Shown: positions 6,718-24,140 of the stretch, piece by piece
Numbering within the stretch: the stretch's first letter is position 1
Layout: every line of letters starts with the position of its first letter
Virus record (IMG/VR): IMGVR_UViG_3300031963_000913
Location: 1 to 24,140 of that record
Source of the DNA: a virus
Strand: one strand, 5' to 3'
DNA length: 24,140 nt
Made by a program: the position numbers and the translations under genes
The notes under the pieces: generated by a model
Seen by the model: the letters and a program-made list of their open reading frames with translations, nothing else
What the model was told of the DNA's origin: nothing
Databases searched by the model: none

Positions 6718-6868
6718 CAGTTAGCCTCTCCTTCTCAAGTAATTCCTTGTATTGGTCGGGGTACTGCTGAGCAAGGCGGGTTAGCGCTCTCGCCCTCGCC
6801 CTCTGATAATTGCGTAGCCATACGGCTCGCTTCTCAGAGTTCTGTCTGCGTCTATCTATCGTTTTCAT
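6563..6868 (-). CDS. Basic phage protein of unknown function
   Basis: A 101-aa product. Residues 1-58 are helical and strongly basic (RRRQNSEKRAVWLRNYQRARARALTRLAQQYP..), ending near an ANGRAWLDISG strand. The remaining 40 residues are Ser/Asn/Asp/Gly-rich and probably disordered. The disordered part is encoded where the frame overlaps the transglycosylase signal region, which suggests that the tail is constrained by the other gene. The WLRNYQRARARALTRLA type of helix is common in small actinophage proteins with presumed nucleic-acid binding. GGGAG lies about 10 nt before the ATG, inside the tiny membrane ORF upstream, whose 3' end it overlaps by 17 nt. Confidence 0.65.
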   Translation of the reverse strand: MKTIDRRRQNSEKRAVWLRNYQRARARALTRLAQQYPDQYKELLEKERLTDEANGRAWLDISGATATNNDIGSSRNTRGNSSRSEKSNTDEQDKGYVGGEE

Positions 6869-6938
6869 TGAGTTTATGCTCCCATATAATCAGCAGATAG
6901 GCAAGAATACAGACGGCTATTACACCTAGAAATATCAC
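6852..6938 (-). CDS. 28-aa single-pass membrane peptide
   Basis: Starting at GTG (6938-6936) in a GTGA overlap with the preceding stop, with GAGGAG upstream, the frame encodes a hydrophobic helix of about 18 residues (IFLGVIAVCILAYLLIIW) and a short charged tail (EHKLNENDR). Without it there would be a gap in an otherwise overlapping gene train. Directly upstream of a transglycosylase, a holin-like or accessory lysis function is conceivable but unproven. Confidence 0.6.
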   Translation of the reverse strand: MIFLGVIAVCILAYLLIIWEHKLNENDR

Positions 6939-7162
6939 CCTCTACTCCTCTCGCTTGTGATAGTAGCCAGCACCAGCGCCGTCACTTCTATCTTGTCGGT
7001 TACCAGCACAGGGTTCTCGATGTCCTGCTCATTCCATACACTCACAAAGATAGAGTTATCTAGCCCTCGTCTGAACCATTCAACGGCGTCAGACGGGCTT
7101 GCTCCACCCCACGCAATATCGCCCTTCCTATCCATTACCTCATAGAAATTGACGAGTTTCAT
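6935..7162 (-). CDS. Small conserved-looking phage protein
   Basis: A 75-aa protein beginning VNFYEVMDRKGDIAWGG, followed by a helix (SPSDAVEWFRRGLDNSIFVSVW) and strands (PVLVTDKIEVTALVLATIT). The alpha/beta composition and the GGASPSDAVEWFRRG turn look like a compact domain; I recall similar early proteins in actinophages, all of unknown function. Start in an ATGA overlap with the gene before; stop in a GTGA overlap with the membrane peptide. Confidence 0.7.
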   Translation of the reverse strand: MKLVNFYEVMDRKGDIAWGGASPSDAVEWFRRGLDNSIFVSVWNEQDIENPVLVTDKIEVTALVLATITSERSRG

Positions 7163-7362
7163 ACTTCACTCCCACAAACTAGACAGGTTACTTCTTCGAC
7201 AGGTTGTTCTATCTCACAAGCATCACAGTCTTGCCACTTGATATGTAATAACTGTTGATTATCTTGTCTATCTTTGACAAACTTTCTGACTGATCCGTCT
7301 CCGAAATTGACATACATTTCGTAGAGAAAATCAGATAACTCTTTCTCTTCATACAGTTTCAT
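7159..7362 (-). CDS. Small protein with C-terminal zinc ribbon
   Basis: A 67-aa product with AGGAGGAGAAG just before its ATG. The first 40 residues are an acidic then basic helix/strand region. The end carries CDAC (C46, C49) and CLVC (C60, C63), a classic zinc ribbon. Likely a protein- or nucleic-acid-binding adaptor. Function unknown. Confidence 0.7.
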   Translation of the reverse strand: MKLYEEKELSDFLYEMYVNFGDGSVRKFVKDRQDNQQLLHIKWQDCDACEIEQPVEEVTCLVCGSEV

Positions 7363-7519
7363 TCTTCTCCTCCTTGTAGTTGATTAGTTGTAGTTCATTC
7401 AAGGCATTCACCATACGGATTAGGTTCGCCCCTGCCTCCTTGCTATCTCCCTCTACCATTTGCTTGATCGCAAGGTCACGGCAGAGGTCTGCCTTTGCTT
7501 GATAGTATTCTTTATTCAC
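7349..7519 (-). CDS. 56-aa helical protein
   Basis: GTG start (7519-7517) with GGAGG 6 nt upstream. The product is one long helical run (QAKADLCRDLAIKQMVEG, then SKEAGANLIRMVNALNELQL) ending in a charged tail whose codons also supply the ribosome site of the next gene. It overlaps both neighbours by 8 and 14 nt. Function unknown. Confidence 0.65.
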   Translation of the reverse strand: MNKEYYQAKADLCRDLAIKQMVEGDSKEAGANLIRMVNALNELQLINYKEEKNETV

Positions 7520-7652
7520 TTGCTTCCTCCTCCAATAGTCCTTCCAATAAATTGAGTATTCCTGTCACCTGTTCAGGTTCATCTCCTTCTCGCCAAGAAT
7601 ATGACGCTAAGAAATCGTATTGCTCCTTGAGTAATCCTTTATCTATATTCAT
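7512..7652 (-). CDS. 46-aa acidic helical protein
   Basis: ATG 7652 preceded by GGAGGAGAGTA. The product (KEQYDFLASYSWREGDEPEQ, then ILNLLEGLLEEEASE) is acidic and helical and may form a helical hairpin. It overlaps its neighbours by 14 and 8 nt, the pattern of the whole train. Function unknown. Confidence 0.6.
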   Translation of the reverse strand: MNIDKGLLKEQYDFLASYSWREGDEPEQVTGILNLLEGLLEEEASE

Positions 7653-7803
7653 TACTCTCCTCCATTTCTTTGATTAGGTCATCTATTTCAGGAGAGTAGG
7701 CTACTCTATCCGCCTTCTCTTCCTCTAAACCACACGCAGTTTCGGCGTGCTTTGTTAGTGTGCGATCAGAGAAGTTCCACCCACATACACCACACTTAGG
7801 CAT
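7639..7803 (-). CDS. 54-aa zinc-finger-like protein
   Basis: Started at ATG 7803 because GGAGGAGAGTA directly precedes it; an upstream in-frame ATG would extend it without a ribosome site. C4-x2-C7, then H19-x4-C24 (KCGVCGWNFSDRTLTKHAETAC) give a C2HC finger, followed by an acidic tail. The finger resembles DNA- or RNA-binding knuckles, but binding is not shown. Confidence 0.7.
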   Translation of the reverse strand: MPKCGVCGWNFSDRTLTKHAETACGLEEEKADRVAYSPEIDDLIKEMEESNEYR

Positions 7804-7963
7804 TACTCTCCTCCTCGCACTCAGTATCATCGTGAACCTTTCGATCCCACTTACTCTCCTCATTCAACATCTCACAGCACGCACCGCAGATATCATTCTC
7901 ACATCTGTCACACGGCACAGAGTCAGGGAACAACTTATCTCCACACTCTATACACCTAGACAT
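7796..7963 (-). CDS. 55-aa cysteine-rich protein
   Basis: ATG 7963 preceded by GAGGAGGT. Cysteines at 4, 7, 18, 21, 26, 29, 30 and 49 (CIECGD, CDRCENDICGACC) allow two zinc sites of RING or double-ribbon type. The tail is charged. It overlaps its neighbours by 8 nt on both sides. Confidence 0.7.
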   Translation of the reverse strand: MSRCIECGDKLFPDSVPCDRCENDICGACCEMLNEESKWDRKVHDDTECEEESNA

Positions 7964-8132
7964 TGACTACCTCCTCTGAACAGTTGTGTTCTCCATTGTT
8001 GTATTCACCGCACGCACCGCAGGCGTGCCACTTGCTCTCATAATCGGGATCATAGACACACCGTTGCCCGTGATAACTAGACCAATGCTCGCCACACCCC
8101 ACGCATTTATCGTTCTTGTCATAGTTACTCAT
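7956..8132 (-). CDS. 58-aa cysteine/histidine-rich protein
   Basis: ATG 8132 shares one base with the preceding stop (TAATG). Ligand pairs are C10-x2-C13 (CVGCGEHW) and C38-x2-C41 (CGACGEY), with C25, C51 and several His between. Two zinc sites are likely. It resembles its neighbour at 7796-7963 in layout but not in exact spacing, so common ancestry is possible but not shown. Confidence 0.65.
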   Translation of the reverse strand: MSNYDKNDKCVGCGEHWSSYHGQRCVYDPDYESKWHACGACGEYNNGEHNCSEEVVNV

Positions 8133-8254
8133 TACTCGCCCTCTCTCTCCTTGATTTCTACCTTACTCATTACCCACAGCACCGCCCCGATTAGTAGGGC
8201 GATACCTAACACTTGCGCGGTGGCTTGCCACCCTCCTAGATATATGTCGAACAC
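8132..8254 (-). CDS. 40-aa single-pass membrane peptide
   Basis: GTG start (8254-8252) sharing one base with the preceding TAG; GAGGAAG lies about 12 nt upstream. One hydrophobic segment (ATAQVLGIALLIGAVLWVM) is followed by a charged cytosolic-type tail (KVEIKEREGE). It is the second tiny membrane gene of this operon. Possible roles include superinfection exclusion or lysis timing; none is supported beyond topology. Confidence 0.6.
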   Translation of the reverse strand: MFDIYLGGWQATAQVLGIALLIGAVLWVMSKVEIKEREGE

Positions 8255-8574
8255 TATGCGCTCACTTCCTCTTCTGCTAATTCTTCTTCCAATTCCTCAA
8301 TGGCTTCGTTGAACAAATCGGTGTAGTAGAGATATAGGTCAAGCCCCATTAGACCAATAATCGTAATCTCTCCCCCCATACCTAACTCAGCATAACCGCG
8401 ATTATCGTATTCGCTAGGTAACTCTTGCCATTCTCTAATTATCTGATTAGAGTAAACGGGAAGATAGCCGTCCACCCATTCGCCCGAATTGTCTTTGATA
8501 TCGTCAATTTCTTCCCCATTGGATAGGGCGGTACGGATTTCTTGCTTCATCTGTTCTACTGTTGTCCTGCTCAT
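8254..8574 (-). CDS. Acidic phage protein of unknown function
   Basis: A 106-aa acidic product starting at ATG 8574 with AAAGGA about 8 nt upstream. The N-terminus is helical (EQMKQEIRTALSNGEEIDDI), the centre aromatic (YLPVYSNQIIREWQELPSEYDN), and the end an acidic coiled stretch (NEAIEELEEELAEEE). High negative charge is seen in DNA-mimic and anti-defence proteins of phages, but charge alone is not evidence of that role. It has its own leader element (8575-8677), unlike most genes of the train, so it may be the first gene of a sub-operon. Confidence 0.7.
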   Translation of the reverse strand: MSRTTVEQMKQEIRTALSNGEEIDDIKDNSGEWVDGYLPVYSNQIIREWQELPSEYDNRGYAELGMGGEITIIGLMGLDLYLYYTDLFNEAIEELEEELAEEEVSA

Positions 8575-10200: not shown

Positions 10201-10202
10201 GT

Positions 10203-10223
10203 GTGGTGCTTTGCACCACTTTT
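10203..10223 (+). terminator. Short perfect hairpin with TTTT tail
   Basis: GTGGTGC-TTT-GCACCAC followed by TTTT. It looks like a weak intrinsic terminator placed 37 nt before the first packaging-operon gene; it may be a second attenuation point or mark the end of the structured element. Confidence 0.5.
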
Positions 10224-10260
10224 AGTGGGGATAGTTGTATCTATTCCAATAGGAGATCTA

Positions 10261-10752
10261 ATGGCAAAGCAAAAACCCACCAAACAACAGAAGGCCTATG
10301 GTAAGGCCCGTGCTGGTGGAAATAAACCTATGAAGATTACAGGCGACGATGTTCGTCGCGCTGGCAAGGCTGCTGCCATTGTTGCTATCAACCTTACCCC
10401 TACAGGACGTGCTGCTAGTACCGTCGCTAAAATTGCTTCTCTATCCAAGGCTACCAAGTTATCCTCTGGTGCCTCCAAGGTAAAGACCAAAACCTTTACC
10501 CAAGGAAGAACTGCTAGAATTACAAACACCCCTCCTAAAAAATCGGCTGCTGGTCCTAACTCTCCTATCAAGGGAACTAAGGTCAAGGTTGAGTACAAAA
10601 CCAAAGAACTTACTCCTAAGCAGCAGGCTACTTTGACCACAGGTCGGGTAGTTCGTGAAAAAGGCAAAGCAGCAGGAGCCTACGCTAAAGGTGCTGCTAC
10701 TACAGCAATCATTGCCAGCGAAAAGGGTAAGAACAAAAAGAAGAAGAAGTAG
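10261..10752 (+). CDS. Basic Lys/Ala-rich protein before terminase
   Basis: A 163-aa product from ATG 10261, with AGGAG 5 nt upstream; a longer upstream reading would run through the hairpin at 10203-10223. It is very basic and low in acidic residues, with an Ala/Thr/Lys composition, an Ala-rich hydrophobic helix (AAAIVAINLTPTGRAASTVAKI) near 38-60, and a C-terminal GKNKKKKK tail. It sits where a small terminase subunit would be expected but lacks the acidic, compact pattern of TerS. DNA condensation or a minor virion protein is possible. Two further basic genes follow among the terminase and portal genes. Confidence 0.75.
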   Translation: MAKQKPTKQQKAYGKARAGGNKPMKITGDDVRRAGKAAAIVAINLTPTGRAASTVAKIASLSKATKLSSGASKVKTKTFTQGRTARITNTPPKKSAAGPNSPIKGTKVKVEYKTKELTPKQQATLTTGRVVREKGKAAGAYAKGAATTAIIASEKGKNKKKKK

Positions 10753-10757: not shown

Positions 10758-12632
10758 GTGACTGTAACCCCGAACAAGACCAAAGAGTCAGATAGAGCCA
10801 AGAAGGTCATACTCCAATGTATGGCTGAAGGTATGACTGTGGAAGCGGCAGTCAAGACTGCTGGTAAATCCATCAAGTCCTATGAGTACTATCGTCGGGT
10901 AGATCCCACATTCAAGTCGTTGGCTGATAGAACCCGCCTCGGTTCTGTAGAAAAGAACTGGGCTGAGGAATCAGCCCTTGGTCTAGACTTTGTTACCTGG
11001 AGACAAAAGTACCTCAGATCCAAGACCTTTGGTCACCAGAAGAATCTGATAGATGTGATAGAAGGACGCGAACCTTCCTGGCTCCATCCATCAATGAAGT
11101 ACGAAAAAGGTATTGCAGATAACCGCATCCTTTTGAACATCCCACCCAACCACGCCAAGTCAATGACGGTCACGGTGGATTATGTTACCTACCGCATTGT
11201 CAATAACCCCAACTTTAGAGTTCTTATAGTTTCCCAAACCCAGCGTTTAGCGGCTGACTTCCTTTATGCTATAAAGCAGCGACTAACGCATCCAATGTAC
11301 GAAGAACTACAGCAGGCCTACGCCGCTGGGGTTGGGTTCAATACTAAGACAGCCTCCTGGCAGGCTACCCGTGTTACCTTTGGTGAAGAACTACGTGAGT
11401 CTTCTGAAAAAGATCCAAACCTAGAAGCCGTCGGTATCGGCGGTCAGATCTACGGTAAACGCGCTGATATGATTATCATAGATGACGCTGTAACCTTATC
11501 AAACGCCAATGACTTTGAACGACAGATCAAGTGGCTCACCCAAGATGTACGAAGCCGTCTGAACCCCACAGGTAAACTTATTGTGGTAGGTACCCGCGTT
11601 GCACCAGTAGACCTATACAAAGAATTACGTAATCCAGATCGCTACCCTGGTGGCTTAGTTCCCTGGACCTATCTGGCTATGCCAGCACTTCTTGAGACAA
11701 ACGAAGACCCAGAAAAATGGGTTACACTCTGGCCCTATTCCGATGCTCCATTTGATGGACAAGAAGAAGTAGATAAAACAGAAGAAGGCTTATACCCTCG
11801 TTGGAATGGTAAGCATCTATTTGCTGAACGCCAGGCTATGGATACCTCCACCTGGGCGCTAGTCTACCAACAGCAAGATGTTTCTGATGATGCAATCTTT
11901 GACCAAGTTTGTGTGAAAGGCTCCATTGATGGAATGCGAAAAGCAGGTCGTCTGGTGCCTGGCAATCCAGGTCATCCCAAAGACCTCAACGGTTTCAGTT
12001 TTGTTTGTGGACTCGACCCAGCAATGGTCGGAGACACAGCGGCGGTATGTTATGCAGTTGATCGCATTTCTCATAAGCGCTACATTGTGGACGCTATCAA
12101 GATTACGCGTCCTACGCCTGCACAAATCAGACAACTCATTACCGATTGGACTCACGTATATGCACCATCGGAATGGATCGTGGAGCGTAACGCCTTTCAA
12201 TCTTTTCTCACGCAAGATGAAGGAATTAGACAGTTCCTTGCATCCAAGGGAGTTGTACTAAGAGAGCACCACACTGGTAATAACAAGTGGGATGCAGGCT
12301 TTGGTGTGGCATCTATGTCTACACTCTTTGGTACCAAGCAGCAAGATGGAAAGCATCACAGAGATAATCTGATTCATCTACCCTCAGACCAAACAGAAAA
12401 TATCAAGAGCCTTATAGAACAACTTATTACTTGGTCACCTACGACTAAGGGTAAGACCGATATGGTGATGGCCTTGTGGTTCTGTGAGATTAGAGCACGT
12501 GAGTGGCTCAACAACGGAATTCACGCAGCACATCATCTCAAGAATCCATTTTTGTCCCGCTATGAACGGGGCAAGAGAATGGTTGTCAACATTGACAATC
12601 TACTCGCTGAACAGGAAAGGCAATTTATCTAA
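10758..12632 (+). CDS. terL: Terminase large subunit (ATPase and nuclease)
   Basis: A 624-aa protein from GTG 10758, 5 nt after the preceding stop. The ATPase domain has a variant Walker A IPPNHAKS (128-135), Walker B DMIIIDDAV (D242-D243) and a coupling segment IVVGTRVAP. The RNase-H-like nuclease follows with CGLDPAM (D420), WIVERNAF (E476) and TDMVMALWF (D568), the three metal-binding acidic residues expected for concatemer cleavage. It powers DNA translocation into the prohead through the portal encoded two genes downstream. Residues 10-60 (ILQCMAEGMTVEAAVKTAG.. YEYYRRVDPTFKSLADRTR) form an extra helix-turn-helix-like region resembling small-terminase DNA-binding domains. No separate small subunit gene is evident nearby. 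Confidence 0.95.
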   Translation: MTVTPNKTKESDRAKKVILQCMAEGMTVEAAVKTAGKSIKSYEYYRRVDPTFKSLADRTRLGSVEKNWAEESALGLDFVTWRQKYLRSKTFGHQKNLIDVIEGREPSWLHPSMKYEKGIADNRILLNIPPNHAKSMTVTVDYVTYRIVNNPNFRVLIVSQTQRLAADFLYAIKQRLTHPMYEELQQAYAAGVGFNTKTASWQATRVTFGEELRESSEKDPNLEAVGIGGQIYGKRADMIIIDDAVTLSNANDFERQIKWLTQDVRSRLNPTGKLIVVGTRVAPVDLYKELRNPDRYPGGLVPWTYLAMPALLETNEDPEKWVTLWPYSDAPFDGQEEVDKTEEGLYPRWNGKHLFAERQAMDTSTWALVYQQQDVSDDAIFDQVCVKGSIDGMRKAGRLVPGNPGHPKDLNGFSFVCGLDPAMVGDTAAVCYAVDRISHKRYIVDAIKITRPTPAQIRQLITDWTHVYAPSEWIVERNAFQSFLTQDEGIRQFLASKGVVLREHHTGNNKWDAGFGVASMSTLFGTKQQDGKHHRDNLIHLPSDQTENIKSLIEQLITWSPTTKGKTDMVMALWFCEIRAREWLNNGIHAAHHLKNPFLSRYERGKRMVVNIDNLLAEQERQFI

Positions 12633-12904
12633 TGGCAACAATAAAAAAGAAAACTGCTAAGCAAATTGCAGGAACTAGAACTAGAGCAGCACAATATGCT
12701 GAAGCAAATAAAGCAGAAGATAAAGTGCGTGTAGCCGCTATAAATCTCTCAAGAGGTGTGCCTAAGAGTAAAGCAGGTAAGTTAGCCCGTTCTGTTTCTA
12801 ACCCAACCAAGGCTGAGTATAAAGCCGCAACTGCTATGCAGAAACAACGTGCTGCAGAAACAGACCGAGCCTACGCTAGAAGTTTGAAGAAAAAGAAGAA
12901 GTAA
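12632..12904 (+). CDS. Small basic protein between terminase and portal
   Basis: A 90-aa product, ATG 12632 sharing a base with the terminase stop (TAATG). Almost a quarter of residues are Lys or Arg; Ala is also abundant and the C-terminus is SLKKKKK. The sequence KSKAGKLARSVSNPTKAEY could be a flexible DNA- or capsid-binding peptide. Composition mirrors the genes at 10261 and 14678. Function unknown. Confidence 0.7.
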   Translation: MATIKKKTAKQIAGTRTRAAQYAEANKAEDKVRVAAINLSRGVPKSKAGKLARSVSNPTKAEYKAATAMQKQRAAETDRAYARSLKKKKK

Positions 12905-12928: not shown

Positions 12929-14665
12929 ATGTTATCAGTCAAAGAGGTAGTCGCAAAGGTTGCTCGTCTACAGACGAAGTACTCTGCTCGCGACCAGCGT
13001 ATGCGCGACGTGCTATCAGTACGTCAAGGAGACATCAGCAAGGTTTACCCTGCGATGTTCTCAGAAGATTACCCAAAGCCTCTTGTTGCTAACTTCGTAG
13101 ATGTTGCTGCTCGTGACCTCGCAGAGGTAATGGCACCACTGCCATCATTCAACTGCGCTGCTACCAATATGGTTTCAGACTCAGCACGCAAGGCTGCAGA
13201 TACCAGAACTCGTATCGCTAACTATTACGTCTCTATGTCTGAGTTGCAGATTCAGATGTATAACGGTGCTGACTGGTTCAACACCTACGGAATGCTGCCA
13301 GCAATGGTTGAGATGGATTACGAGACAAACAATCCACGTATCCGCTTGCTCAATCCATTTGGTGTCTATCCTGAGATTGACAGATTTGGTCGTTGCACAT
13401 CACTTACTCAAACAATTCAAACTGACGCTGAGACTTTATCAGCGCAGTATCCAGAGTTTGCTTCCCAGATTATGCCTAAGATGGCATTCACAATGGGTAG
13501 CCCTTATATCACAATGGTCCGTTATCACGACAAAGACCAAGACTTGGTATTCCTACCAGATCGCAATAACTTAGTTCTATCTAACTTACCTAACCCAACT
13601 GGTAAGTGTATGGCTCGCGTTGCTGTTCGCTCATCTTTAGATGGCGAAGCACGTGGTCAATTTGATGATGTTCTAGCGGTGCAGTTGGCACGCGCTAGAT
13701 TTGCAGTTCTGCAAATTCAAGCAGCAGAAAAGTCTATTCAAGCACCGATTGCTATTCCGCAGGATGTCCAAGAACTCGCACTTGGCCCTGATGCGATTAT
13801 GCGTTCATCTAATCCACAGGCAATCCGCCGTGTGCCGCTAGAACTTCCACCTGGAGTCTTTACAGAATCAGGCGTTCTAGAGCGCGAACTACGTCTCGGT
13901 TCTCGTTATCCAGAAGTTCGCTCAGGAAACATTGACGCATCTATCATTACAGGTCGCGGAGTTCAAGCACTACAGGCTGGCTTTGATACACAAGTACGTG
14001 CAGCGCAAGCACAGTTTGCTCGCCTCTTTACTGAACTTGTATCTCTCTGCTTTGAAACAGATGAAAAAATCTTTGGCAATATGACCAAAGAAATCAAGGG
14101 CGTAGATGATGGTACTCCATTCAATATGAAGTATGTACCAAGCCGCGCTATCAATGGTGAGTACGGTATAGATGTGCGCTACGGCATTATGTCTGGTATG
14201 AATCCCAACAATGCCATCATCGCTTTGCTACAAATGCGTTCTGACAAACTTGTATCACGCGACTATGTACGTCGTGAAATCCCGATGGAGTTGAATGTTA
14301 CTCAAGAAGAACAACGTGTTGACATTGAAGAGATGCGCGATTCTCTTCGTGTTGCTGTTGCTCAGTATGCCCAGGCTATTCCAGCGATTGCTGCACAAGG
14401 TCAAGATCCTTCTCAGATTGTTGCTCGAATCGCCGAGGTAATCAAGGGTCGTCAAAAAGGTTTACAACTAGAAACTATTGTGGAGAAGGTATTTACACCA
14501 GAGCCACAACCTGAAGTCCCAGCAGAAATGATGGGCGGTGAAGTTCCAGCAGCAGGTATGGCCCCCGTTCCTGCCTCGCAGCCAACTCCAGAACAAATGG
14601 GTGCGGCCCCTGCTGCTGGCGCTCGTCCAGATATTGCTACGTTACTCGCATCTATTGCAGGGTAG
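12929..14665 (+). CDS. Portal protein
   Basis: A 578-aa protein with AGGAA upstream of ATG 12929. Its length, its position two genes after terminase, and its pattern fit portal proteins: a helical N-terminus (VKEVVAKVARLQTKYSARDQRMRDVLSVRQGD), a YPKPLVANFVDVAARDLAEVMAPLP segment, the wing region around NPFGVYPEIDRFGR, and a long helical stem with FDTQVRAAQAQFARLFTEL. A Pro/Ala-rich C-terminal tail (from about residue 525) is typical of actinophage portals. Portals form the dodecameric vertex ring for DNA entry and exit. The match is by pattern and context rather than by a catalytic motif. Confidence 0.85.
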   Translation: MLSVKEVVAKVARLQTKYSARDQRMRDVLSVRQGDISKVYPAMFSEDYPKPLVANFVDVAARDLAEVMAPLPSFNCAATNMVSDSARKAADTRTRIANYYVSMSELQIQMYNGADWFNTYGMLPAMVEMDYETNNPRIRLLNPFGVYPEIDRFGRCTSLTQTIQTDAETLSAQYPEFASQIMPKMAFTMGSPYITMVRYHDKDQDLVFLPDRNNLVLSNLPNPTGKCMARVAVRSSLDGEARGQFDDVLAVQLARARFAVLQIQAAEKSIQAPIAIPQDVQELALGPDAIMRSSNPQAIRRVPLELPPGVFTESGVLERELRLGSRYPEVRSGNIDASIITGRGVQALQAGFDTQVRAAQAQFARLFTELVSLCFETDEKIFGNMTKEIKGVDDGTPFNMKYVPSRAINGEYGIDVRYGIMSGMNPNNAIIALLQMRSDKLVSRDYVRREIPMELNVTQEEQRVDIEEMRDSLRVAVAQYAQAIPAIAAQGQDPSQIVARIAEVIKGRQKGLQLETIVEKVFTPEPQPEVPAEMMGGEVPAAGMAPVPASQPTPEQMGAAPAAGARPDIATLLASIAG

Positions 14666-14677
14666 GGAGGTGTAAAT

Positions 14678-14809
14678 ATGAAAAAAGGTGGTCGTGCAAA
14701 GGCATCAGTCCAGAAGCCAACCGAAGGTCCTAAGAAGGCTCCAATGCCAAAGGGCGGAAAAGTTGCTTTTGGTTATGCAGCAAAGGCTCGTAAAGGCAAG
14801 AAGGCTTAG
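14678..14809 (+). CDS. 43-aa basic protein
   Basis: ATG 14678 preceded by GGGAGG. The product is rich in Lys, Gly, Ala and Pro (KKGGRAKASVQKP.., GKVAFGYAAKARKGKKA). It is the third basic gene interleaved with the packaging genes and has no internal domain. Strong ribosome site and conserved-looking composition support it. Confidence 0.6.
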   Translation: MKKGGRAKASVQKPTEGPKKAPMPKGGKVAFGYAAKARKGKKA

Positions 14810-14831
14810 TTTTACTTTGAGAGGATAGAGC

Positions 14832-15050
14832 GTGGACGAAGATAAAGATTATGTACCTCGCTCTATTACTCTCGCTGATTTCTTAGTAGTTGTATCAGGT
14901 TTTGCAGTAAACATAGTTAGAGCATTTGAAATGCTTGCTTCAGAATTATTAGATTTAGCAGTGTATAACGCAAATAGAAAAACAAAGGTTTCCAGAGTGT
15001 GGGAACAATTTACTTCAGATTTAGAGAAGATGGAGGACAATAATGGCTAG
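14832..15050 (+). CDS. Small protein with one hydrophobic segment
   Basis: GTG 14832 with GAGGATAGAG before it. A 72-aa product with a hydrophobic stretch (ITLADFLVVVSGFAVNIVRAF, residues about 12-32) followed by a helical, charged end. It may be membrane-associated or simply a hydrophobic helix used in head assembly. It overlaps the next gene by 8 nt. Confidence 0.6.
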   Translation: MDEDKDYVPRSITLADFLVVVSGFAVNIVRAFEMLASELLDLAVYNANRKTKVSRVWEQFTSDLEKMEDNNG

Positions 15051-15441
15051 AGGCCCACTAGCAGGACCAGCAGGTCCAGGCAAGTTCTCCAAGAGAACAG
15101 ATGGATTAGAATTCAAACCAGATACTTATGGTCAAGGTGTAGAGCAAGCCGCAATCAAAGCAGGTGCTCCACTTGCAAAGACTGCAGATGTTCGTGGATT
15201 ACCAGCAGGAGAAGTTCGTGCTGCAGCACAAGAAGCAGTAACTCCGTTATTTGCACCAAGCCAACGTCCAGATGAACCTATTACTTCAGGTATTGCAATG
15301 GGCGAAGGACCTGGACCAGAAGTTCTAGGCGGAGCAAGACCAGCACAAAAACTTTCTGACACTTTAGCGCAACTATTACCTTTTGATGATACAGGCGATA
15401 TAGCAATCTTGTATCAAGAGGCATTAGCACGGGGTAACTAA
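15043..15441 (+). CDS. Unknown virion-module protein (132 aa)
   Basis: Gly/Ala/Pro-rich product beginning ARGPLAGPAGPGKFSKRTDG, with a compact C-terminal helix pair (KLSDTLAQLLPFDDTGDIAILYQEAL). Encoded between two coupled neighbours. No family recognised; the low-complexity start and folded end suggest a linker or adaptor protein bound to portal or to the giant protein next to it, which is inference from position alone. Confidence 0.65.
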   Translation: MARGPLAGPAGPGKFSKRTDGLEFKPDTYGQGVEQAAIKAGAPLAKTADVRGLPAGEVRAAAQEAVTPLFAPSQRPDEPITSGIAMGEGPGPEVLGGARPAQKLSDTLAQLLPFDDTGDIAILYQEALARGN

Positions 15442-18400
15442 TGGCTGATCTGAATACCGCAGCATCGGCAGCAGGTCTTACTCCAGCACAAAAGAAACAG
15501 ATTGAAAAACTTTCTAAAGCGCTAGAGGCCCACAAGACTCTTTTGAACCTACCAGCACCTGTTGCTGAAGAGGCGTATCAAAATAAATTTACTGCATCTG
15601 AAAAACAAGATATGCAGAATAAGTTTGGTACAGAGTCTCCAGAGCAAAAGCCACCTCGTGGTTGGCTAGGAACTGCTTGGCATTACACAGGTTCCAAAGT
15701 TCTTGATGTTCTTGAGGCTGGCTCTGATTTATCAACTCGTGTTGCTCGTACTGGAATCATAGCCCTCGAAGAAGGAATCAATCTTTCTGATGCTTGGGAT
15801 CGCTCTGATAAGAGTGGACAAAAAGTATTCAATGAAAAAAGACTTCAGAAGGCTACAAAGAAATACGGCGATACAGTAATAGGTTTAGCCAAGCGCCTTC
15901 AAAGCGGTGAGAAAGTAACCGACATAATGGTTACTGCTACACCTGAAGAACAGTACTGGCTCAAGATTGCTGACAATACCGTCAAAGATATCAATGGTAT
16001 CAAAGACGAAAAAATCAAAGCCGATAGGGATTTGTTTGAAGATGCACTTGCATCGGTAAACGCTGCACAGTATTCACCAGGTCGTTTTATAGCAAACATT
16101 GTAGATACTATTACACCAGGTGACTTATATGAAAAAGGCTTTTTCTATAAAGTTACATCTGGAGCACTCGATGCAATGTATCGAATTGTTGCAGATCCAT
16201 TTATCCTACTTGGAAAAGCAAAGCGTCTTTATGATGTCAACAAGTATGCCTACGAAGTAATCGTTGCTTCAGCAAAAGAAGGCGGAGAAACTGCTGCCCA
16301 GTATTTTGCTAAGGATTCTACAGTCCAGTTCTGGAACAGATATGGTCAGGAACTAGACAAGATTCGCAAGGCTACTGATAGTGGCGATAGAGAAGCAGCA
16401 GCAAGAGCGCGTATTGAAGCGCAGCGGATTGCTCCAGAGTTCGGTCCTAGCGTAATCAACCTATTCAACAAAAACAATATCTCAGATATTGAGACAGCCA
16501 AAGCGTTCTTCTATAACTCAGAAGATGCTTTCAAGGTAATGGCTGCAGGAACTGCTCGTCGCCGCATCATTATGCCTCGCCTAGACCCTCTACGTAGAGC
16601 ACGTCTAAGCACTTTGACTACTGCTAATAAGGTTTTCAACATAGATACAGTTGGTCCAAAACTAGTTGATAATATGTTCGGGTATCCAGCAACCGATGAT
16701 GGTATCTACAAAGCCCTTGTTGAGGATAGAACAAAACTGGTAGAGGCAGCCCAAGGTCTAAAAGTCAAGGGTGTAGATCGTTTCCGTTTTTCTAGCGCAG
16801 ACATTGCACGTCGCTATGACAATGCAAAGCGTAAGTTTACTCGCATCCCGCTATTTAGAAACGATGAATTCAACCTTCGTGAAGCAGATGCCCCAGATAA
16901 GATTTATCAGTTAGCAGCGATTGCACTTCCAACTCGTGAGGCGCGTCTTATTTCTGAAACATTTAGAGCAACTGATGATCTTGGTCGTCGTAAAGATATC
17001 TATGATGGGTTATGGAATACCCTTGTAGAAATACGTGGAGCCAATAAGTTTCCTGCTGGTCAGAATGTAGCACGACTACTTCGCCAAAAGGGTAAAGAAA
17101 AATACAGCGTTGCTGGAACTGACGACTACATTGACTTTGGTGTATTGCCAAGTGAAATGAATGACATAGTTACTGCTCCTAGCCTAGTAGACCTTGATCG
17201 TCTGGCTGGTAGAAGCGGTCTTGTAAATACCATTGTTGGATTTGGTAATACAAAGTGGGCAGAAAAGATGACCAACTACTGGTCATTCTTGACTCTTGCT
17301 GGTCCTCGTTACGCTATTCGTAACGCCTCAGAAGATTTGATGGTAAACCTTGCTATCGGTAATAGTGTATGGGGTATTGCTAAAAGCAAGTATCTATCTA
17401 CGCGTCTCAATACCGCTATTCAACTAGCGCCAGGTTTGACCAGGGCTGAGAAATTTGCATCTGATCCACTTGGTATCATTATGCGATTTGTCAATAAGAG
17501 CCAGGCTGATAAGTATTCTGGAGAAATCAAGGCAATTCAAACAACTCTTGAATCTCAAAAGAAGCAGATTGCTGATTTCGCTAGAATAGCAAAGTCCAGT
17601 AAAGATGCAAACGAAGTTGCTACAGCCAAGGCTAATATCAGCCGTATCAACAAAGAAATGAATGCTAAGGGTGGAGTCGTAGACCAGACTCGCGTCATCC
17701 TTGCTCAGGCTTTATCAGAAGGTCGTACCCAAAACTTCCTCAAGAAGTTCAATATCAAACTACTTGATGATGAAGGCGTAGATATTCTAAAAGAGCAAGT
17801 TCTCTTTGGTGATATTGACAACGTAGTATCTATTATTTCTGAAGGCGGATTCAACTTCGCATCAGGCTCTACATATATTGATGGCGCTTACGACTTAGCC
17901 AAGTCACTTGGCGTAAGACAAGCAGAACTTCGCCTTGATTTAGGTGGACTCAAGACTCGCTATGGAAGAACTGCGACAGATCGCGGATTCCGTGAGATTG
18001 GCATAATCAAAGAAAACGAGGCATCTCTAGTTGCCTGGGCTTTACGTATTTCATTCTATGGAAATGATGAACTAGGCTCTATAGCACTTGCTAATTTGTC
18101 AGATGATGCTAACGAGGCTGCTAATACAATCAAGACTATCCGCACTTACCTAGAAGGTAACAAGCAATTAGTCTCAGATGCACGTCTTTTGGCAGGAAGA
18201 GATTTATCTCTTGATGAATACGCCAAGATAGTCTATGACCGAGCAAAGTCTTTAGTAGCGGAACGCTCTACTGGTAAAATCAATACTGCTTTGCTAGATA
18301 AGATTCGCGTTTTTGATGACGACCTAGGTAGATACAAGATTTCAGGTAAACTAACACTTGAAGATGTCTACGATATAGACGAAGCATTGCTTCCTAAGTC

Positions 18401-20294
18401 TGTTGTTGGACCAGAATTGGTACCAGTAGCAGATGTAGATAACTATACAGCGCCATTGATGCAAAATGGTTGGGTATGGCTAGGACTATCGAACGCTCGT
18501 ATCTCTCGTCAGCCTATTGTATTCAACGAAATGGTACAGATTCGCAAGCAAATGCGTAAGGCTGGATTTGAAAAGGCTTATCTTGATGCCTTTACTCGTG
18601 ATATCAAAGATCCTGCAGCCAAAGCAGCAGCACTTGTCAATGCAAGAAAAGAACTTGCTACCTTGGTAGAGGAAAGAGCAACATCACAGGTACTTGCATA
18701 CGTGGATAATCCACTTATCCGTAGCCAAGTATCGTTCTCACTGCGTAACTTTGCTCGCTTCTATCGTGCTCAGGAAGACTTCTTCCGTCGTTTCGGACGT
18801 ATTATTCGCTATAACCCAGAGGCAATCCAAAGATTGCTACTTACTTGGGATGGCGTTGCACATTCAGGCTGGATACAAGAAGATGATCGTGGAGAAAAGT
18901 ACTTTGTTTACCCACATTTCGCTCCAGGATATAAGGCTATCCAGGGAACTCTTCGACTTCTAGGTATTGAGCAGGACTTCAAAGTACCATTCCCAGTGCA
19001 ATTCGGTGGTTCTGTAAAGATGCTCACACCATCTATCAATACAGAGTCGTGGTTGCCTACATTCTCTGGCCCTGCAGCAGCGCTTCCTATGACTATGCTT
19101 GAGAGTATTTCTGACATATTCAAACCAGGTATGGGAGATACGATTGCAAGATACACTCTTGGAGAGTATGCCGTAGGCGAAACCCTAGTATCGCGTCTAT
19201 TGCCAGCACACGTCAACCGTTTTGTTGCAACATTTGACCAAGACGAGAGAAACTCTCAGTATGCTTCTGCAATTCGCAAATCAGTTACTTATCTAGAGGC
19301 ATCAGGAAATGGTATTCCTAAGCGTTATGATGAGGCTGGAGAACTACTTCCACCATCACCTGCAGAACTTGAAGAGTATCGCCAAAAACTGCGGTCAACA
19401 GCGCTAGGTATCCTAGCAACACGATTTGCATTCGGCTTCCTTGCACCAGCATCACCATCTATCCAACTAAAGTCTGATATGTCAGAATGGATTCGTGACT
19501 CTGGCTTGGCTAACTGGAAGCAAGCATTCAACGATTTGCGTGAAAAGTATGATGGAGACTATGACGCAGCAATGCGTAAGTGGGTAGAGATTTACCCAAA
19601 TACAGTCCCATATACTGTCACAGAATCAGAGCGAAAGACGGTAGCATTCTTTGGTTACGCTGAAGAATCGGGTAGATTCGTAGAAGAAAACTCAGGTTTA
19701 TTTGAAGATCACCCAGAAGGCGCTGCATTCCTCATCCCACATAAGGGTGCATTCTCATTTGATACATACAGAACTATGTCGGAGATGGGACTTCGTACCA
19801 ATAAGCGAGTAGAAGATTATATTCGTGAGGTACAGACCGCTGCAGACCTGCAGACATACTACGACAAGCGCGATGAGTATGAAACACAACTTGAGTTCGC
19901 TGGTTCTGATTTTGCTCGTAGCATATTCCGTCAAGAGTTCAACTCTTGGAAACAGAGATTCTTTGCTGGTCGCCCATTAGTTCGTGAAGAACTAAACCAA
20001 GGCGCAGAAAAAGCAATCCAGCGAGTAGAGGCTTTGGATGATCTACAACAGATGCTCAGCAATCCAAGGTATGCAGCAGTTAGACCAGAAACTCAAGATG
20101 TCTTACGTAAGATGATGGATGCTTACACATCGTACAAGACACAGAAAGAGATTCTAGAACTAACTGGAAGCAATTCAGACTTTATGGATTCTATGAAGGA
20201 CAGCACAATCGTTCAGATCCGTGAACTTGCTACCTTCAATGAAAATACTCAAGCAGCATACGACGCATTGTTTGCAAGACTATTAGGCGACTAG
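15441..20294 (+). CDS. Giant (1617-aa) probable virion protein
   Basis: Starts at ATG 15441 sharing one base with the previous stop. It is the longest gene of the window and is largely helical, with charged stretches throughout. Noticeable parts: a 30-residue helix at the N-terminus (AQKKQIEKLSKALEAHK), a segment near 611-632 (WSFLTLAGPRYAIRNASEDLMVN) resembling the W..LTL.RP.Y.IRN motif of large phage internal or 'polyvalent' proteins, coiled regions near 690-745, and an aromatic/Arg patch near 1093-1130 (LRNFARFYRAQEDFFRRFG). I find no protease, transglycosylase or transmembrane signature. Position after portal and before the scaffold gene suggests an ejected or internal head protein, but a tape-measure-like role cannot be excluded. 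Confidence 0.7.
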   Translation: MADLNTAASAAGLTPAQKKQIEKLSKALEAHKTLLNLPAPVAEEAYQNKFTASEKQDMQNKFGTESPEQKPPRGWLGTAWHYTGSKVLDVLEAGSDLSTRVARTGIIALEEGINLSDAWDRSDKSGQKVFNEKRLQKATKKYGDTVIGLAKRLQSGEKVTDIMVTATPEEQYWLKIADNTVKDINGIKDEKIKADRDLFEDALASVNAAQYSPGRFIANIVDTITPGDLYEKGFFYKVTSGALDAMYRIVADPFILLGKAKRLYDVNKYAYEVIVASAKEGGETAAQYFAKDSTVQFWNRYGQELDKIRKATDSGDREAAARARIEAQRIAPEFGPSVINLFNKNNISDIETAKAFFYNSEDAFKVMAAGTARRRIIMPRLDPLRRARLSTLTTANKVFNIDTVGPKLVDNMFGYPATDDGIYKALVEDRTKLVEAAQGLKVKGVDRFRFSSADIARRYDNAKRKFTRIPLFRNDEFNLREADAPDKIYQLAAIALPTREARLISETFRATDDLGRRKDIYDGLWNTLVEIRGANKFPAGQNVARLLRQKGKEKYSVAGTDDYIDFGVLPSEMNDIVTAPSLVDLDRLAGRSGLVNTIVGFGNTKWAEKMTNYWSFLTLAGPRYAIRNASEDLMVNLAIGNSVWGIAKSKYLSTRLNTAIQLAPGLTRAEKFASDPLGIIMRFVNKSQADKYSGEIKAIQTTLESQKKQIADFARIAKSSKDANEVATAKANISRINKEMNAKGGVVDQTRVILAQALSEGRTQNFLKKFNIKLLDDEGVDILKEQVLFGDIDNVVSIISEGGFNFASGSTYIDGAYDLAKSLGVRQAELRLDLGGLKTRYGRTATDRGFREIGIIKENEASLVAWALRISFYGNDELGSIALANLSDDANEAANTIKTIRTYLEGNKQLVSDARLLAGRDLSLDEYAKIVYDRAKSLVAERSTGKINTALLDKIRVFDDDLGRYKISGKLTLEDVYDIDEALLPKSVVGPELVPVADVDNYTAPLMQNGWVWLGLSNARISRQPIVFNEMVQIRKQMRKAGFEKAYLDAFTRDIKDPAAKAAALVNARKELATLVEERATSQVLAYVDNPLIRSQVSFSLRNFARFYRAQEDFFRRFGRIIRYNPEAIQRLLLTWDGVAHSGWIQEDDRGEKYFVYPHFAPGYKAIQGTLRLLGIEQDFKVPFPVQFGGSVKMLTPSINTESWLPTFSGPAAALPMTMLESISDIFKPGMGDTIARYTLGEYAVGETLVSRLLPAHVNRFVATFDQDERNSQYASAIRKSVTYLEASGNGIPKRYDEAGELLPPSPAELEEYRQKLRSTALGILATRFAFGFLAPASPSIQLKSDMSEWIRDSGLANWKQAFNDLREKYDGDYDAAMRKWVEIYPNTVPYTVTESERKTVAFFGYAEESGRFVEENSGLFEDHPEGAAFLIPHKGAFSFDTYRTMSEMGLRTNKRVEDYIREVQTAADLQTYYDKRDEYETQLEFAGSDFARSIFRQEFNSWKQRFFAGRPLVREELNQGAEKAIQRVEALDDLQQMLSNPRYAAVRPETQDVLRKMMDAYTSYKTQKEILELTGSNSDFMDSMKDSTIVQIRELATFNENTQAAYDALFARLLGD

Positions 20295-20301
20295 GAAGAT
20301 A

Positions 20302-21435
20302 ATGGCAACGACTCTCAAGCAGTTCCTTGACAAGGACCCACAGGTCAAGGCAGCCCGTAAAAAGGCTCAAGCCGCACGTGCTGAACTACAAAAGCAGCAA
20401 CAGGCTTTAGCAGCAGCAGGTGCTCGTGCAGATGCTAATACAATAGAGGCAATCAATCGTCGTATCCAAGCAGCGCAACAAGAAGTAGATAAGCAGTCTG
20501 AGAACCTACAGTTGGTTGAGGCTAATCGTACTGATTACTTCTCTCAAAACAAAAAGGCTATTAGAACTGAAGAACGCGAACTAAGCGTAGCGGAAGCAAA
20601 GCAAGAACTTGAGGAGTTGCTACAGCAACGCCGTCAAGATCCTCGCATTGCTGGTCCAGTTGTAGATGCTCGTATTCAAGACCTCAACGACAGAATCAAT
20701 GGGACTGGAAAGTATGCTCCTAAACCAAAAGAAACCAAGGTTGATGGTGCAGTTACAAATCAAGAAGGTGGCGCTAAAGAATTACGCGACTACACTACCG
20801 AAATAAAGAACGCTTATGTAACTGTAAGAAATATGAAGCCTGCTCAACGCAAGGCTTTGATAACAAGTTTGAAGAATGCTGGATATAATCCACCAAATGT
20901 ATCTGAGGTATACACAGATCAACTTGCTAATGAGTATCTCAAGGCTATCCAAGAGAACTCAGTAAGATCAAGACAGTTTGGTGAAATATCATTCAATGAA
21001 TTTCTTACTGAAAAGACTATTGAGAACAACGCCCTAAAGAAATCTGGCACTGGTCTAACAACGACAGTTGACACTGATGTTGATATTGTCCGTAAAACCA
21101 AAGGTCAGATTGATCAGGATATTAGCGAAATCGCTATCAAGGTTCTAGGTAGAGACATATCTGAAGAAGATAAGGTCGAAGACTGGTATAAAAACCTAGT
21201 CAACTCTATTGGCAAGATGTACGAAAAAGGAACAAAGACTGTAACTACAGCCACGACAAGACGTGGTGATGGGTCAACTGTATCTGGTTCTAAGAGAATT
21301 GTAACGCCTAGCGTTGCTGAGGCTGACATTGATGCCTTGATTGAACGTCGTTTGAGAAAGAATGACCCAGAAAGCGTAGGCCGTAAAGAACGGCTTGACT
21401 TTGTTTCGTGGATGAATAAGGCATTAGGAGACTAA
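20302..21435 (+). CDS. Coiled-coil probable virion protein (377 aa)
   Basis: AGGAAG precedes ATG 20302. Residues 15-115 form a strong coiled coil (AARAELQKQQQALAAAG.., NRRIQAAQQEVDKQSENLQ). The rest is a mixed domain region with a Lys-rich middle and a C-terminal helix (RKERLDFVSWMNKALGD). It directly follows the giant gene and has the same expression context. Length and coiled coil suit a structural or assembly role; no family recognised. Confidence 0.65.
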   Translation: MATTLKQFLDKDPQVKAARKKAQAARAELQKQQQALAAAGARADANTIEAINRRIQAAQQEVDKQSENLQLVEANRTDYFSQNKKAIRTEERELSVAEAKQELEELLQQRRQDPRIAGPVVDARIQDLNDRINGTGKYAPKPKETKVDGAVTNQEGGAKELRDYTTEIKNAYVTVRNMKPAQRKALITSLKNAGYNPPNVSEVYTDQLANEYLKAIQENSVRSRQFGEISFNEFLTEKTIENNALKKSGTGLTTTVDTDVDIVRKTKGQIDQDISEIAIKVLGRDISEEDKVEDWYKNLVNSIGKMYEKGTKTVTTATTRRGDGSTVSGSKRIVTPSVAEADIDALIERRLRKNDPESVGRKERLDFVSWMNKALGD

Positions 21436-21437
21436 CG

Positions 21438-22430
21438 GTGGCAGAACCTACTTCATACCAAGAAGCCTTTGATGCAGCATATAAAAGGGCTATTGATCGT
21501 GGCGACAGCCCATCTGAGGCGAATGCTACCGCAAAGGCTGCTGCTGATAACTGGGCAAAAGAATATGACCCAGCAGGAATTCTAGAAGAAGTCCGTAAAA
21601 GTCCAGAAGGTGCAAAACTCGGCATTGGTCTTGCCTTGCTCTCTGACAAAAAATACGGTTCACAACTTATGGAAGTTTTTAGAACCTGGAGAAAAGATAA
21701 GAACAAGGCTCTAGATCTACTCAATAAGTCAGCCTGGGCGCAACTAAATAAGACTGCTCGTGACAACTACTCTCTAATGCTAGAGAGAGGTGACATCTAT
21801 CAGAGCCAACTTGCTAACTTCAAGGCAAGAATCAATAAACTTCTCACAGAAGAAGGCTATGACCGTCTTGATGATAAGACCTTAGAAGATGCTTACCTGT
21901 CTGGTAAAGATGATGAGACATTACTACGCGAGGCTCTTGCTGGATTCAAGTTCAAGCCAGGTGCTACTGGTGGAACTATTGGTGCCAACTATGACACCTT
22001 ACTAAAGGTTGCTCGTCGCAATGGCATTACAGATAGTATGCTTCCAAATGTTCTTGGATTTGATTCAGTAGACGAAATAATCAAGGCAATTCAAGGCGGC
22101 GAACGAATTGATACATTTGAGCGTAAGATTCGTAGTTATGCTAAAACAGCAATGCCAGATTATGTCAAGGGATTGCTTGATGAGGGCCAAGACCTAGAGG
22201 ATATTGTTGGTCCATATAAGGCTGTAATGGTTGATGAATTAGAACTTCCATATAACTCAGTAGTTCTAACAGACAGATACTTACAGGATGCTTTAGCAAA
22301 GCAAACAAATCTTGCTGACTTTAGAAGAACACTAAGAAAAGACTCTCGTTGGCAGTATACAGATAAGGCTAAACAAGAAGTTGCCAGCACGACATTAGGC
22401 ATACTTCGTGACTTTGGATTCCAGGGGTAA
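21438..22430 (+). CDS. Probable virion protein (330 aa)
   Basis: GTG 21438, two bases after the previous stop with AGGAG nearby. A helical protein whose last 50 residues (FRRTLRKDSRWQYTDKAKQEVASTTLGILRDFGFQG) show a pattern I recall from phage structural proteins ending in a DFGF.G motif. The centre contains VLGFDSVDEIIKAIQGG and a predicted beta turn. The next gene starts two bases after the stop. Function unknown; virion association is inferred from position. Confidence 0.65.
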   Translation: MAEPTSYQEAFDAAYKRAIDRGDSPSEANATAKAAADNWAKEYDPAGILEEVRKSPEGAKLGIGLALLSDKKYGSQLMEVFRTWRKDKNKALDLLNKSAWAQLNKTARDNYSLMLERGDIYQSQLANFKARINKLLTEEGYDRLDDKTLEDAYLSGKDDETLLREALAGFKFKPGATGGTIGANYDTLLKVARRNGITDSMLPNVLGFDSVDEIIKAIQGGERIDTFERKIRSYAKTAMPDYVKGLLDEGQDLEDIVGPYKAVMVDELELPYNSVVLTDRYLQDALAKQTNLADFRRTLRKDSRWQYTDKAKQEVASTTLGILRDFGFQG

Positions 22431-22432
22431 TA

Positions 22433-23842
22433 ATGGCTAAGAAAAAAACAACTGCTCCTAAGACTCTAACGCAAAAGCAACTCAAGGATATGCTTGCACA
22501 ACAGCAAGCAAATTTGGCTGCTACTCAGGAAAGATTGACACAGGCCGAAGAGACATATAAATCTTTGACAACTCCATCTGAGGCAGAAACTATTGATCCA
22601 GATTTAGTTCGCAGTAAAGTTACTGGTCTTAGCGCTGCACAACAAGAAGCAAAAGATACCCTTATTTCTATTGCACAAGAACAAGGTGGCGGTTATTTAC
22701 GTACTTCAAAATCAGCAGGCGAGGTAGTTGCTAAGCCAACAACCACACTTCCTCCTGGGCAAGAATGGAAATGGTTTCCTACTACTGGTGGTGGAGGAAG
22801 TTGGAAAGCAGTACAAATTTTTACTCCAGGAAGCGGAAATGGCAGTAGTGGCGGTGGAGTAAATTCAGGAAGTTCTACTGGCTCAACAACTAAAACTACC
22901 TACACTGCTCCAGATGGAAGAATCTTTACTGATCTAGGTGCCTATAACGCATACATTGCACAGATTGCAGCGGAGGATAAGCGACGCAAAGGACAGTCTG
23001 CATTTGATTTATTGTTTAGTGAGTTTGACCGATACGGTATGGGCGCACTGCTAAACGATGTAAAGAACTTTATCGTTGAAGGTTTATCGCGTGATGAGTT
23101 AGTGCTAAAATTACGCGCTACTCCAGCATATGAAAAACGATTTGCTGCTAATGCTCAACGTATAAAATCAGGATTGCGTTCTTTATCTGAGGCAGAATAC
23201 ATCGGTCTTGAAGACCAATACCAAAGCATTATGCGTCAGTATGGATTGCCTCAGTCTTATTATGCTCGTGGAGATATGGGTCGCCAAGAAGGATTTGAAA
23301 AGTTTATTGCTGGCGACGTATCACCAGTAGAATTAGAAGACCGTATTCAGACTGCACAGAACAGAGTAACCAATGCTCCAAAGCAAGTTCGTGATGCGCT
23401 CAATCAATTCTATGGAGCAGAACTTGGTAATGGAGATATTCTCGCTTATGTTCTCGATCCAGAAAAAGCGCTATCTCAAATCAAGCGTAAAGTAACTGCT
23501 GCTGAAATTGGTGGCGGTGCTGCAATGGCAGGACTTGGAGTAGGAAGAGAACGAGCAGAAGAACTAGGTATGTTTGGCGTAACTAGCGAACAAGCACGTC
23601 AAGGTTACCAATCAATCGCAGAATTCCTACCATCTGCTACAAAACTTGGAGACATCTACAGCAAGGCTGGTATGGGTCCATATAACCAAGCAGTTGCAGA
23701 ACAAGAAGTATTTGGTATCACAGGTGCAGCCGATGCCGCATCTAAGCGCAAGAAGTTAGCACAACTAGAGACTGCACAGTTCTCTGGTACAACAGGTGCT
23801 GCACAAGGCGCACTAGGCCGCGAACGCGCTGGCCAATTCTAA
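22433..23842 (+). CDS. Probable virion protein with Gly/Ser linker (469 aa)
   Basis: ATG 22433 overlaps a TAATAATG junction. Domain order: a coiled coil at 12-50 (QLKDMLAQQQANLAATQERL), a folded part to about 125, a Gly/Ser/Thr linker near 130-155 (GSGNGSSGGGVNSGSS), then a helical domain with ATPAYEKRFAANAQRIKSGL, LSEAEYIGLEDQYQSIMRQYGLP and a final Gly/Ala-rich part. The 'YEKRF..N..R...GL..LSEAEY' pattern recurs in phage virion proteins of unknown role. It is the last gene before a hairpin-containing gap and the scaffold-like gene. Confidence 0.68.
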   Translation: MAKKKTTAPKTLTQKQLKDMLAQQQANLAATQERLTQAEETYKSLTTPSEAETIDPDLVRSKVTGLSAAQQEAKDTLISIAQEQGGGYLRTSKSAGEVVAKPTTTLPPGQEWKWFPTTGGGGSWKAVQIFTPGSGNGSSGGGVNSGSSTGSTTKTTYTAPDGRIFTDLGAYNAYIAQIAAEDKRRKGQSAFDLLFSEFDRYGMGALLNDVKNFIVEGLSRDELVLKLRATPAYEKRFAANAQRIKSGLRSLSEAEYIGLEDQYQSIMRQYGLPQSYYARGDMGRQEGFEKFIAGDVSPVELEDRIQTAQNRVTNAPKQVRDALNQFYGAELGNGDILAYVLDPEKALSQIKRKVTAAEIGGGAAMAGLGVGRERAEELGMFGVTSEQARQGYQSIAEFLPSATKLGDIYSKAGMGPYNQAVAEQEVFGITGAADAASKRKKLAQLETAQFSGTTGAAQGALGRERAGQF

Positions 23843-23962: not shown

Positions 23963-24140
23963 ATGTCCAACTACGACTACGAAGATGATGACTTTGACAC
24001 CAATGATGGTGGAGATCTCGTCAAGCAGTTGCGTAAAGCAACAAAAGCAAAAGACAAAGAACTGGCTGAACTAAAGGCACAGTATGAGTCACTTGCAAAA
24101 GCAAATAGAGAACGAGCAATCAAAGATGCCCTCGCTAGTC
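23963..24140 (+). CDS. Scaffold-like protein, N-terminal fragment
   Basis: ATG 23963 preceded by GGGAGAAGGACC. The 59 visible codons start with an acidic region (SNYDYEDDDFDTNDGGD), followed by a charged coiled helix (KQLRKATKAKDKELAELKAQYESLAKANRERAIKDAL). This acidic start plus helix is characteristic of capsid scaffolding proteins encoded just before the major capsid gene. The gene runs off the right edge, so the capsid gene probably lies immediately beyond. Scaffold identity is inferred from composition and place. Confidence 0.65.
   Translation, partial: MSNYDYEDDDFDTNDGGDLVKQLRKATKAKDKELAELKAQYESLAKANRERAIKDALAS

Follow-up and report, generated by a model that had tools for sequence, protein, structure and literature searches.

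The internal core, or ejectosome, of the podovirus T7 is built from several structural proteins (gp14, gp15, and gp16) that include one very large helical protein; gp16 has 1318 amino acids (aa) and carries a transglycosylase domain, and ejection proteins as a group diverge fast (PMC8954989). The podovirus P22 likewise ejects three proteins with its DNA, gp7, gp20, and gp16 (PMC8402733). Such proteins are known from podophages that infect Gram-negative bacteria, and the phi29-like phages of Gram-positive bacteria are said to lack them (PMC8954989). Streptomyces phages of cluster BF have podovirus morphology and no identifiable tape measure (PMC13097060, PMC11536984), and the tail of one of them, Destructrice, measures 16 nm (PMC13097060). 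Two Ca. Planktophila (acI) phages, LanE43AprE7 and AprF5 (here E7 and F5), share one host strain, LanE-43, and are the first isolates on freshwater Nanopelagicales; their published description notes an 8-kb island encoding hypothetical proteins, three in one phage and four in the other, for which the other phage has no homologue, and a further island located at the tail fibre (PMC10202952). Here we analyze a 24,140-base virus record (IMGVR_UViG_3300031963_000913, taken whole and called the window), whose right end falls inside the gene at the scaffold position. We argue that five of its genes between portal and scaffold, D, G, H, I, and J, probably encode ejection or pilot proteins, a module of the virion interior, in a lytic actinobacterial podovirus.

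A preliminary description of the window had placed four open reading frames (ORFs) of 1617, 377, 330, and 469 aa (G, H, I, and J) between a portal and a scaffold gene. All four are confirmed, with the portal upstream and the scaffold position downstream (Table 1), and two smaller genes, C and D, are also part of the block. From D to J the gaps are at most 7 nucleotides: G starts on the last base of the D stop codon, H begins 7 nucleotides past the stop of G, I and J each begin 2 nucleotides beyond the preceding stop codon, and purine-rich sequence precedes the starts. The C protein has a single hydrophobic segment (residues 11-29, hydropathy 1.95). The portal is 43-50% identical to annotated portals across 91-100% of its length (tblastn), and TerL lies upstream of it (phrog_38, E 2.8e-64). 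In alignment-based scans of IMG/VR, the matches listed include over 510 loci resembling J and over 580 resembling G. For the loci compared, which were picked by similarity to G or J (at most 80 per scan) and come in part from fragmentary IMG/VR contigs, the order TerL-portal-C-D-G-..-J-scaffold-capsid holds in 184 of 184 as far as the fragments reach; in these relatives the scaffold (phrog_7813) and then the major capsid protein (phrog_1357) follow J. The four genes are thus not an orphan cassette, and they travel together in gene order, although not, as described below, in their alleles.

The relatives found among annotated phages are podophages of Streptomyces cluster BF, together with two unannotated records, OX376640 and OX376641, which belong to E7 and F5. 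The BF phages (Beephvirinae; gp7-gp13 in both Immanuel3 and Fabian) show the same portal-to-capsid order and have homologues of D, G, I, and J, that of G being recognizable at profile level; unlike the window, they carry two copies of I, tRNA genes between J and scaffold, and a different class of G. E7 has the same module as the window, with TerL and portal 47% and 51% identical, and the WhiB and sigma-70 genes that the window also has (PMC10202952). The capsid and several downstream tail-region genes in the window's lineage are common to BF phages and E7. The cassette had been called undescribed, which is only partly correct: D, I, and J fall into PHROG families of unknown function, and GenBank holds Streptomyces homologues labelled as hypothetical, peptidase, glycosylase, or minor tail proteins. 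The host is likely actinobacterial, because a gene for a WhiB-type regulator lies at positions 1710-1901 (+) of the window (PF02467, E 3.3e-15) and likewise in five 40-kb relatives, and WhiB genes serve as an actinophage marker (PMC10202952). Two scans of bacterial genomes found no relative of the cassette and therefore gave no sign of prophages.

The most constant element of the cassette is a domain that we call the dock, the C-terminal part of I, whose family phrog_6654 is matched by the I proteins of 77 of 77 relatives and which is preceded by a variable N-terminal part. A gene with the I domain stands between G and J in all 163 loci that have both; 82 of them encode H and I fused into one protein, mostly of 450-600 aa, 71 have two genes, as the window does, and the remainder are minor variants. 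H itself matches phrog_13037 in 11 of the 43 relatives with the two-gene form. In the Streptomyces BF phages each of the two I copies has an enzyme as its N-terminal part, one an NlpC/P60 peptidase (3.6e-30), the other an SLT transglycosylase (2.5e-05), and these are the only enzyme domains detected on the scanned I proteins (2 of 77). The enzyme domain in these relatives is on a separate dock protein, and that of T7 on gp16. J combines a conserved helical C-terminal domain with an N-terminal linker (22433-22990) that is glycine-rich in several relatives and as variable as the N-terminus of I (median identity 0.23 where the two portals agree at 93% or more); its AlphaFold model has a predicted local distance difference test score (pLDDT) of 81.6. 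No homology was detected among I, J, and G. One related locus (L080:5319-7504) has between G and J a 399-aa gene without a family match and an I gene 64% identical to that of the window, closer than in most relatives.

G is the best candidate for the main ejected or internal protein. It is by far the longest frame in three 40-kb relatives, its length is fairly constant across loci (median 1611 aa), and, in agreement with the helical giant protein first proposed, a model of residues 420-1617 is mostly helical (AlphaFold, pLDDT 71.4, predicted template modelling score 0.37). The W..LTL...RY.IRN motif noted earlier is indeed present in G, but its supposed likeness to large internal phage proteins finds no link in the libraries. 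Pfam gave no match above cut-off for any of the cassette proteins, and sequence profiles of G, I, and J against the PDB gave chance matches only. For the models of J and of G residues 420-1617, Foldseek found no PDB match at E <= 0.001, in a comparison that barely covered some parts of the models, and the VIA-align rows were common helical pairs with no convincing match. A structure search of BFVD matched uncharacterised phage proteins only. The giant gene is clearly under purifying selection (dN/dS, the ratio of nonsynonymous to synonymous substitution rates, 0.05 against locus L006 and 0.13 against L008 in codon comparisons); the values for H, I, and J are 0.23-0.32 against more distant partners, with dS partly near saturation. 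In two relatives G is interrupted: at L025:2183-6918 it is split over two frames (777 and 697 aa) by a frameshift or an assembly error, and in the Streptomyces phage JXY1 (NC_048854 / MN994275, 11901-16817) the homologue is in four pieces spread over three annotated genes, perhaps through sequencing errors.

An internal, ejected DNA-entry complex is the best reading of this block because the nearest cultured relatives of known morphology are short-tailed, the gene order is conserved, and the dock of I can be fused to cell-wall hydrolases. A large helical protein that is encoded, along with cell-wall hydrolases on a dock, in a short-tailed phage's head operon fits the pattern of ejection proteins. 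The short tail is known from the BF relatives, and the window's phage, whose lineage shares capsid and downstream tail-region genes with them, would probably have one too. The ejectosome-like complex suggested at the outset is therefore the best-supported reading by virtue of its podovirus relatives, head-operon position, and dock-borne hydrolases, while from these we infer the packaging in the head, the ejection, the formation of a channel, and the cause of the diversity. PHROG, Pfam, profile, and Foldseek searches returned no clear match to tape-measure or internal virion families. Several observations weigh against an ejection complex. First, aligned by hhalign with T7 gp14-16, P22 gp7/20/16, and N4 gp51/52 (as single sequences), G, H, I, and J reach probabilities of at most 2.3%, in the range of decoys, and no fold link of J or of G residues 420-1617 (a moderate model) to the T7, P22, and N4 ejection proteins was found. 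Second, no peptidoglycan-cleaving domain, a frequent though not constant part of ejection systems, is found by Pfam in the window's own cassette proteins. Third, SEA-PHAGES annotators name the Streptomyces homologues of I 'minor tail proteins'. Fourth, the ejection genes of T7 and P22 follow the capsid genes and do not precede them: those of T7, a phage with a Gram-negative host, come after tail genes, and those of P22 after capsid and head-completion genes, and neither set has detectable homology to the cassette.

Phages that are nearly identical in their portals differ greatly in this cassette. Among pairs with portals at least 95% identical, the capsid has a median identity of 0.98 (77 pairs) and the scaffold one of 0.94 (117); the median falls to 0.50 for J (352), 0.27 for I (381), and 0.42 for G (388), with G below 0.25 in 35% of pairs. 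The identity of G is hardly tied to that of the portal at all, with medians of 0.39-0.42 over the range from 70% to 100% and a rank correlation of 0.12. The window and the locus L030 illustrate the exchange. Their portals are more than 99% identical and their nucleotide sequences 94-96% identical up to position 15329 inside D, followed by a segment without nucleotide similarity; beyond 22337 identity returns briefly where I ends and J begins, and from 22875 it is 84%. The left breakpoint falls in D in 127 of 150 pairs and early in G in the other 23, and the right one, where measurable, in mid-J in 78 of 90. Loci recur across all these pairs, which are not independent of one another. The first 60 residues of D and the C-terminal 280 of J are conserved and the N-terminal parts of I and J variable; within D the N-terminal half is conserved and the C-terminal half, which co-varies with G, forms the usual left edge of the exchanged segment.

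Profile comparison shows that the alternative versions of the cassette are remotely homologous and represent exchanged alleles of a single module. G falls into the classes KA (the window and E7), KB (L030, L078, and the Streptomyces phages), and KC (F5, L082, and L114). By hhalign, KA and KB align at 99.1% probability over 1210 columns with 17% identity and KB and KC at 100% over 1378 columns with 15% identity; KA and KC aligned directly reach 32% only, and reversed decoys at most 0.3%. The G of L030 aligns with those of Streptomyces phages across 94% of its length (E 7e-88). On a portal tree (FastTree, 135 rows) G changes class 22 times, against 25.4 times with shuffled labels and a minimum of 19, which makes G class nearly unlinked from portal lineage. 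The exchange has more than one unit. D and G co-vary (rho 0.70) and G is uncorrelated with I (-0.02) and J (0.03), so that at least two sub-modules reassort; for the same lack of correlation we reject, as a general rule, transfer of the entire cassette as a single allele. The cassette is a recombinational hot module whose alleles are deeply diverged.

The isolates E7 and F5 differ by a swap of the whole block. They are 96-98% identical at E7 positions 2833-8372 and 16922-25476 and have no match between; this gap, bounded by one breakpoint within D and another where J ends, comprises the larger part of D followed by G, I, and J. The D, I, and J proteins of F5 are found by the family profiles (E 7.6e-07, 7.6e-15, and 8.3e-14), and its giant protein (1711 aa), a KC allele unlike the KA of the window, is linked to the G alignment by profile at 98%. 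The published 8-kb island agrees with the cassette in size and gene counts, and the head operon has no other such gap; the island would thus be this cassette, seen earlier without being recognized (PMC10202952). Because the swap is present in isolates, assembly chimeras are excluded as its sole cause.

Variation of this kind is typical of receptor binding, and G, H, I, and J could instead be minor tail proteins on the outside of the tail or at its tip that attach to the cell wall and degrade it; the variation would then reflect receptor choice, as in tail fibres. In several records Streptomyces gp11 and gp12 carry a minor-tail annotation, and tail-protein PHROGs match the NlpC/P60 part of gp11. 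We consider this unlikely: the block sits in the portal-scaffold interval and not beside the tail genes, tail-fibre-like genes form a separate downstream block, a further variable island is described at the fibre genes of E7 and F5 (PMC10202952), a 16-nm tail offers little space for a 1617-aa protein, and E7 and F5 have different cassettes yet the same host strain. An arms race would also fit a set of packaged effectors which, like phage polyvalent proteins, act against host defences, the DNA passage being built by other proteins. The size, the position in a packaging operon, the extreme allelic diversity, and a weak structural match to a polyvalent-domain protein (E 0.06) point that way. Such a role is improbable, since Pfam detects no enzymatic or LPD domain in any G and such enzyme domains as are seen in relatives are cell-wall hydrolases; a search for LPD38 gave no match, with the positive control equally silent. 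Lower still we place capsid assembly or head-decoration factors without a role in entry. The scaffold and capsid genes adjoin the block, but they remain 94-98% identical in pairs whose G, H, and I are entirely different, which makes tight co-evolution with the shell unlikely, and fused cell-wall hydrolases would make no sense in assembly. That G, which is long, helical, and steady in length, is the tape measure of a long-tailed phage is rejected as very improbable, since it matches no tape-measure family in PHROG or Pfam and the BF relatives with a homologous G are podoviruses without a tape measure and with very short tails (16 nm in Destructrice; PMC13097060).

If the block is an ejection module, its proteins would sit inside the capsid, around the portal or above it, and, on infection, would exit ahead of the DNA and build or line a passage through peptidoglycan and membrane. 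G would supply the long helical mass. I would act through its conserved C-terminal dock, able to bear cell-wall enzymes, the cargo being an NlpC/P60 peptidase and an SLT transglycosylase in the Streptomyces phages, with none detected in the freshwater forms. The C-terminal domain of J may link the module to the conserved parts of the head. D, G, and the N-terminal parts of I and J could be under diversifying pressure because, as we propose, the ejected part is the first to meet the host envelope, and exchange would proceed by recombination at short conserved borders, namely the 5' half of D on one side and the 3' end of I and the C-terminal domain of J on the other. A swap might serve, for instance, to evade superinfection exclusion or to engage another membrane partner.

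Table 1. Coordinates of the cassette and its flanking features in the window (aa, amino acids).
Feature	Position	Strand	Remarks
Portal protein, 578 aa	12929..14665	+	Conserved left flank; tblastn
C, 72 aa	14832..15050	+	Upstream neighbour; same position in 161 loci
D, 132 aa	15043..15441	+	phrog_8200, E 7.6e-14
Segment without nucleotide similarity to L030	15330..22337	+	Flanks 94-96% identical on the left, ~84-85% on the right
G, 1617 aa	15441..20294	+	Giant ORF; predicted mostly helical; fast-exchanged
Conserved WSFLTLAGPRYAIRN segment of G	17277..17324	+	Residues ~613-628; R627 invariant in 24 relatives
H, 377 aa	20302..21435	+	ORF
I, 330 aa	21438..22430	+	GTG start; phrog_6654, E 4e-21, residues 169-329
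Dock domain, C-terminal part of I	21993..22427	+	...RWQYT..A......L...RDFGFQG; phrog_6654
J, 469 aa	22433..23842	+	phrog_8424, E 8.3e-92
Conserved helical C-terminal domain of J	22994..23839	+	Usual right edge of exchanged segment
Scaffold-position gene, 5' end only	23963..24140	+	Position equivalent to phrog_7813 scaffold of relatives

Elsewhere in the window, a 141-aa ORF at 6292-6717 (-) has an N-terminal hydrophobic segment and looks by eye like a lysozyme or transglycosylase (RES..NP.SSAFGIAQ), and may encode a membrane-anchored cell-wall enzyme; an SLT profile search of the window gave no match. TerL is flanked by small proteins with lysine-rich ends (KKKKK) at 10201-10752 and 12632-12904, the latter varying from 90 to 131 aa among relatives. 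In the relative L036, a 786-aa gene (14217-16577; phrog_5313, of unknown function) lies past the capsid genes in the place of tail proteins, and E7 matches only 90 aa at its N-terminus; a glycosyltransferase gene (16809-17879; phrog_13126) stands amid the tail genes, as described for Planktophila phages.

Nanopelagicales are very abundant freshwater bacteria, and the 8-kb island in their first cultured phages would be explained as an allele swap of a putative entry module. It is possible, and we offer this more tentatively than the assignment of the module itself, that actinobacterial podophages have an ejection complex of their own, with no sequence relationship to the T7, P22, and N4 complexes, and that the ejected proteins, in addition to the tail fibres, are a front of the arms race, at which near-identical phages of one host exchange deeply diverged alleles (about 15% identity) of a module of 7-8 kb. 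E7 and F5 represent a natural swap experiment, so that the role of the module is directly testable, and candidate genes can now be named for the entry of short-tailed actinophages.

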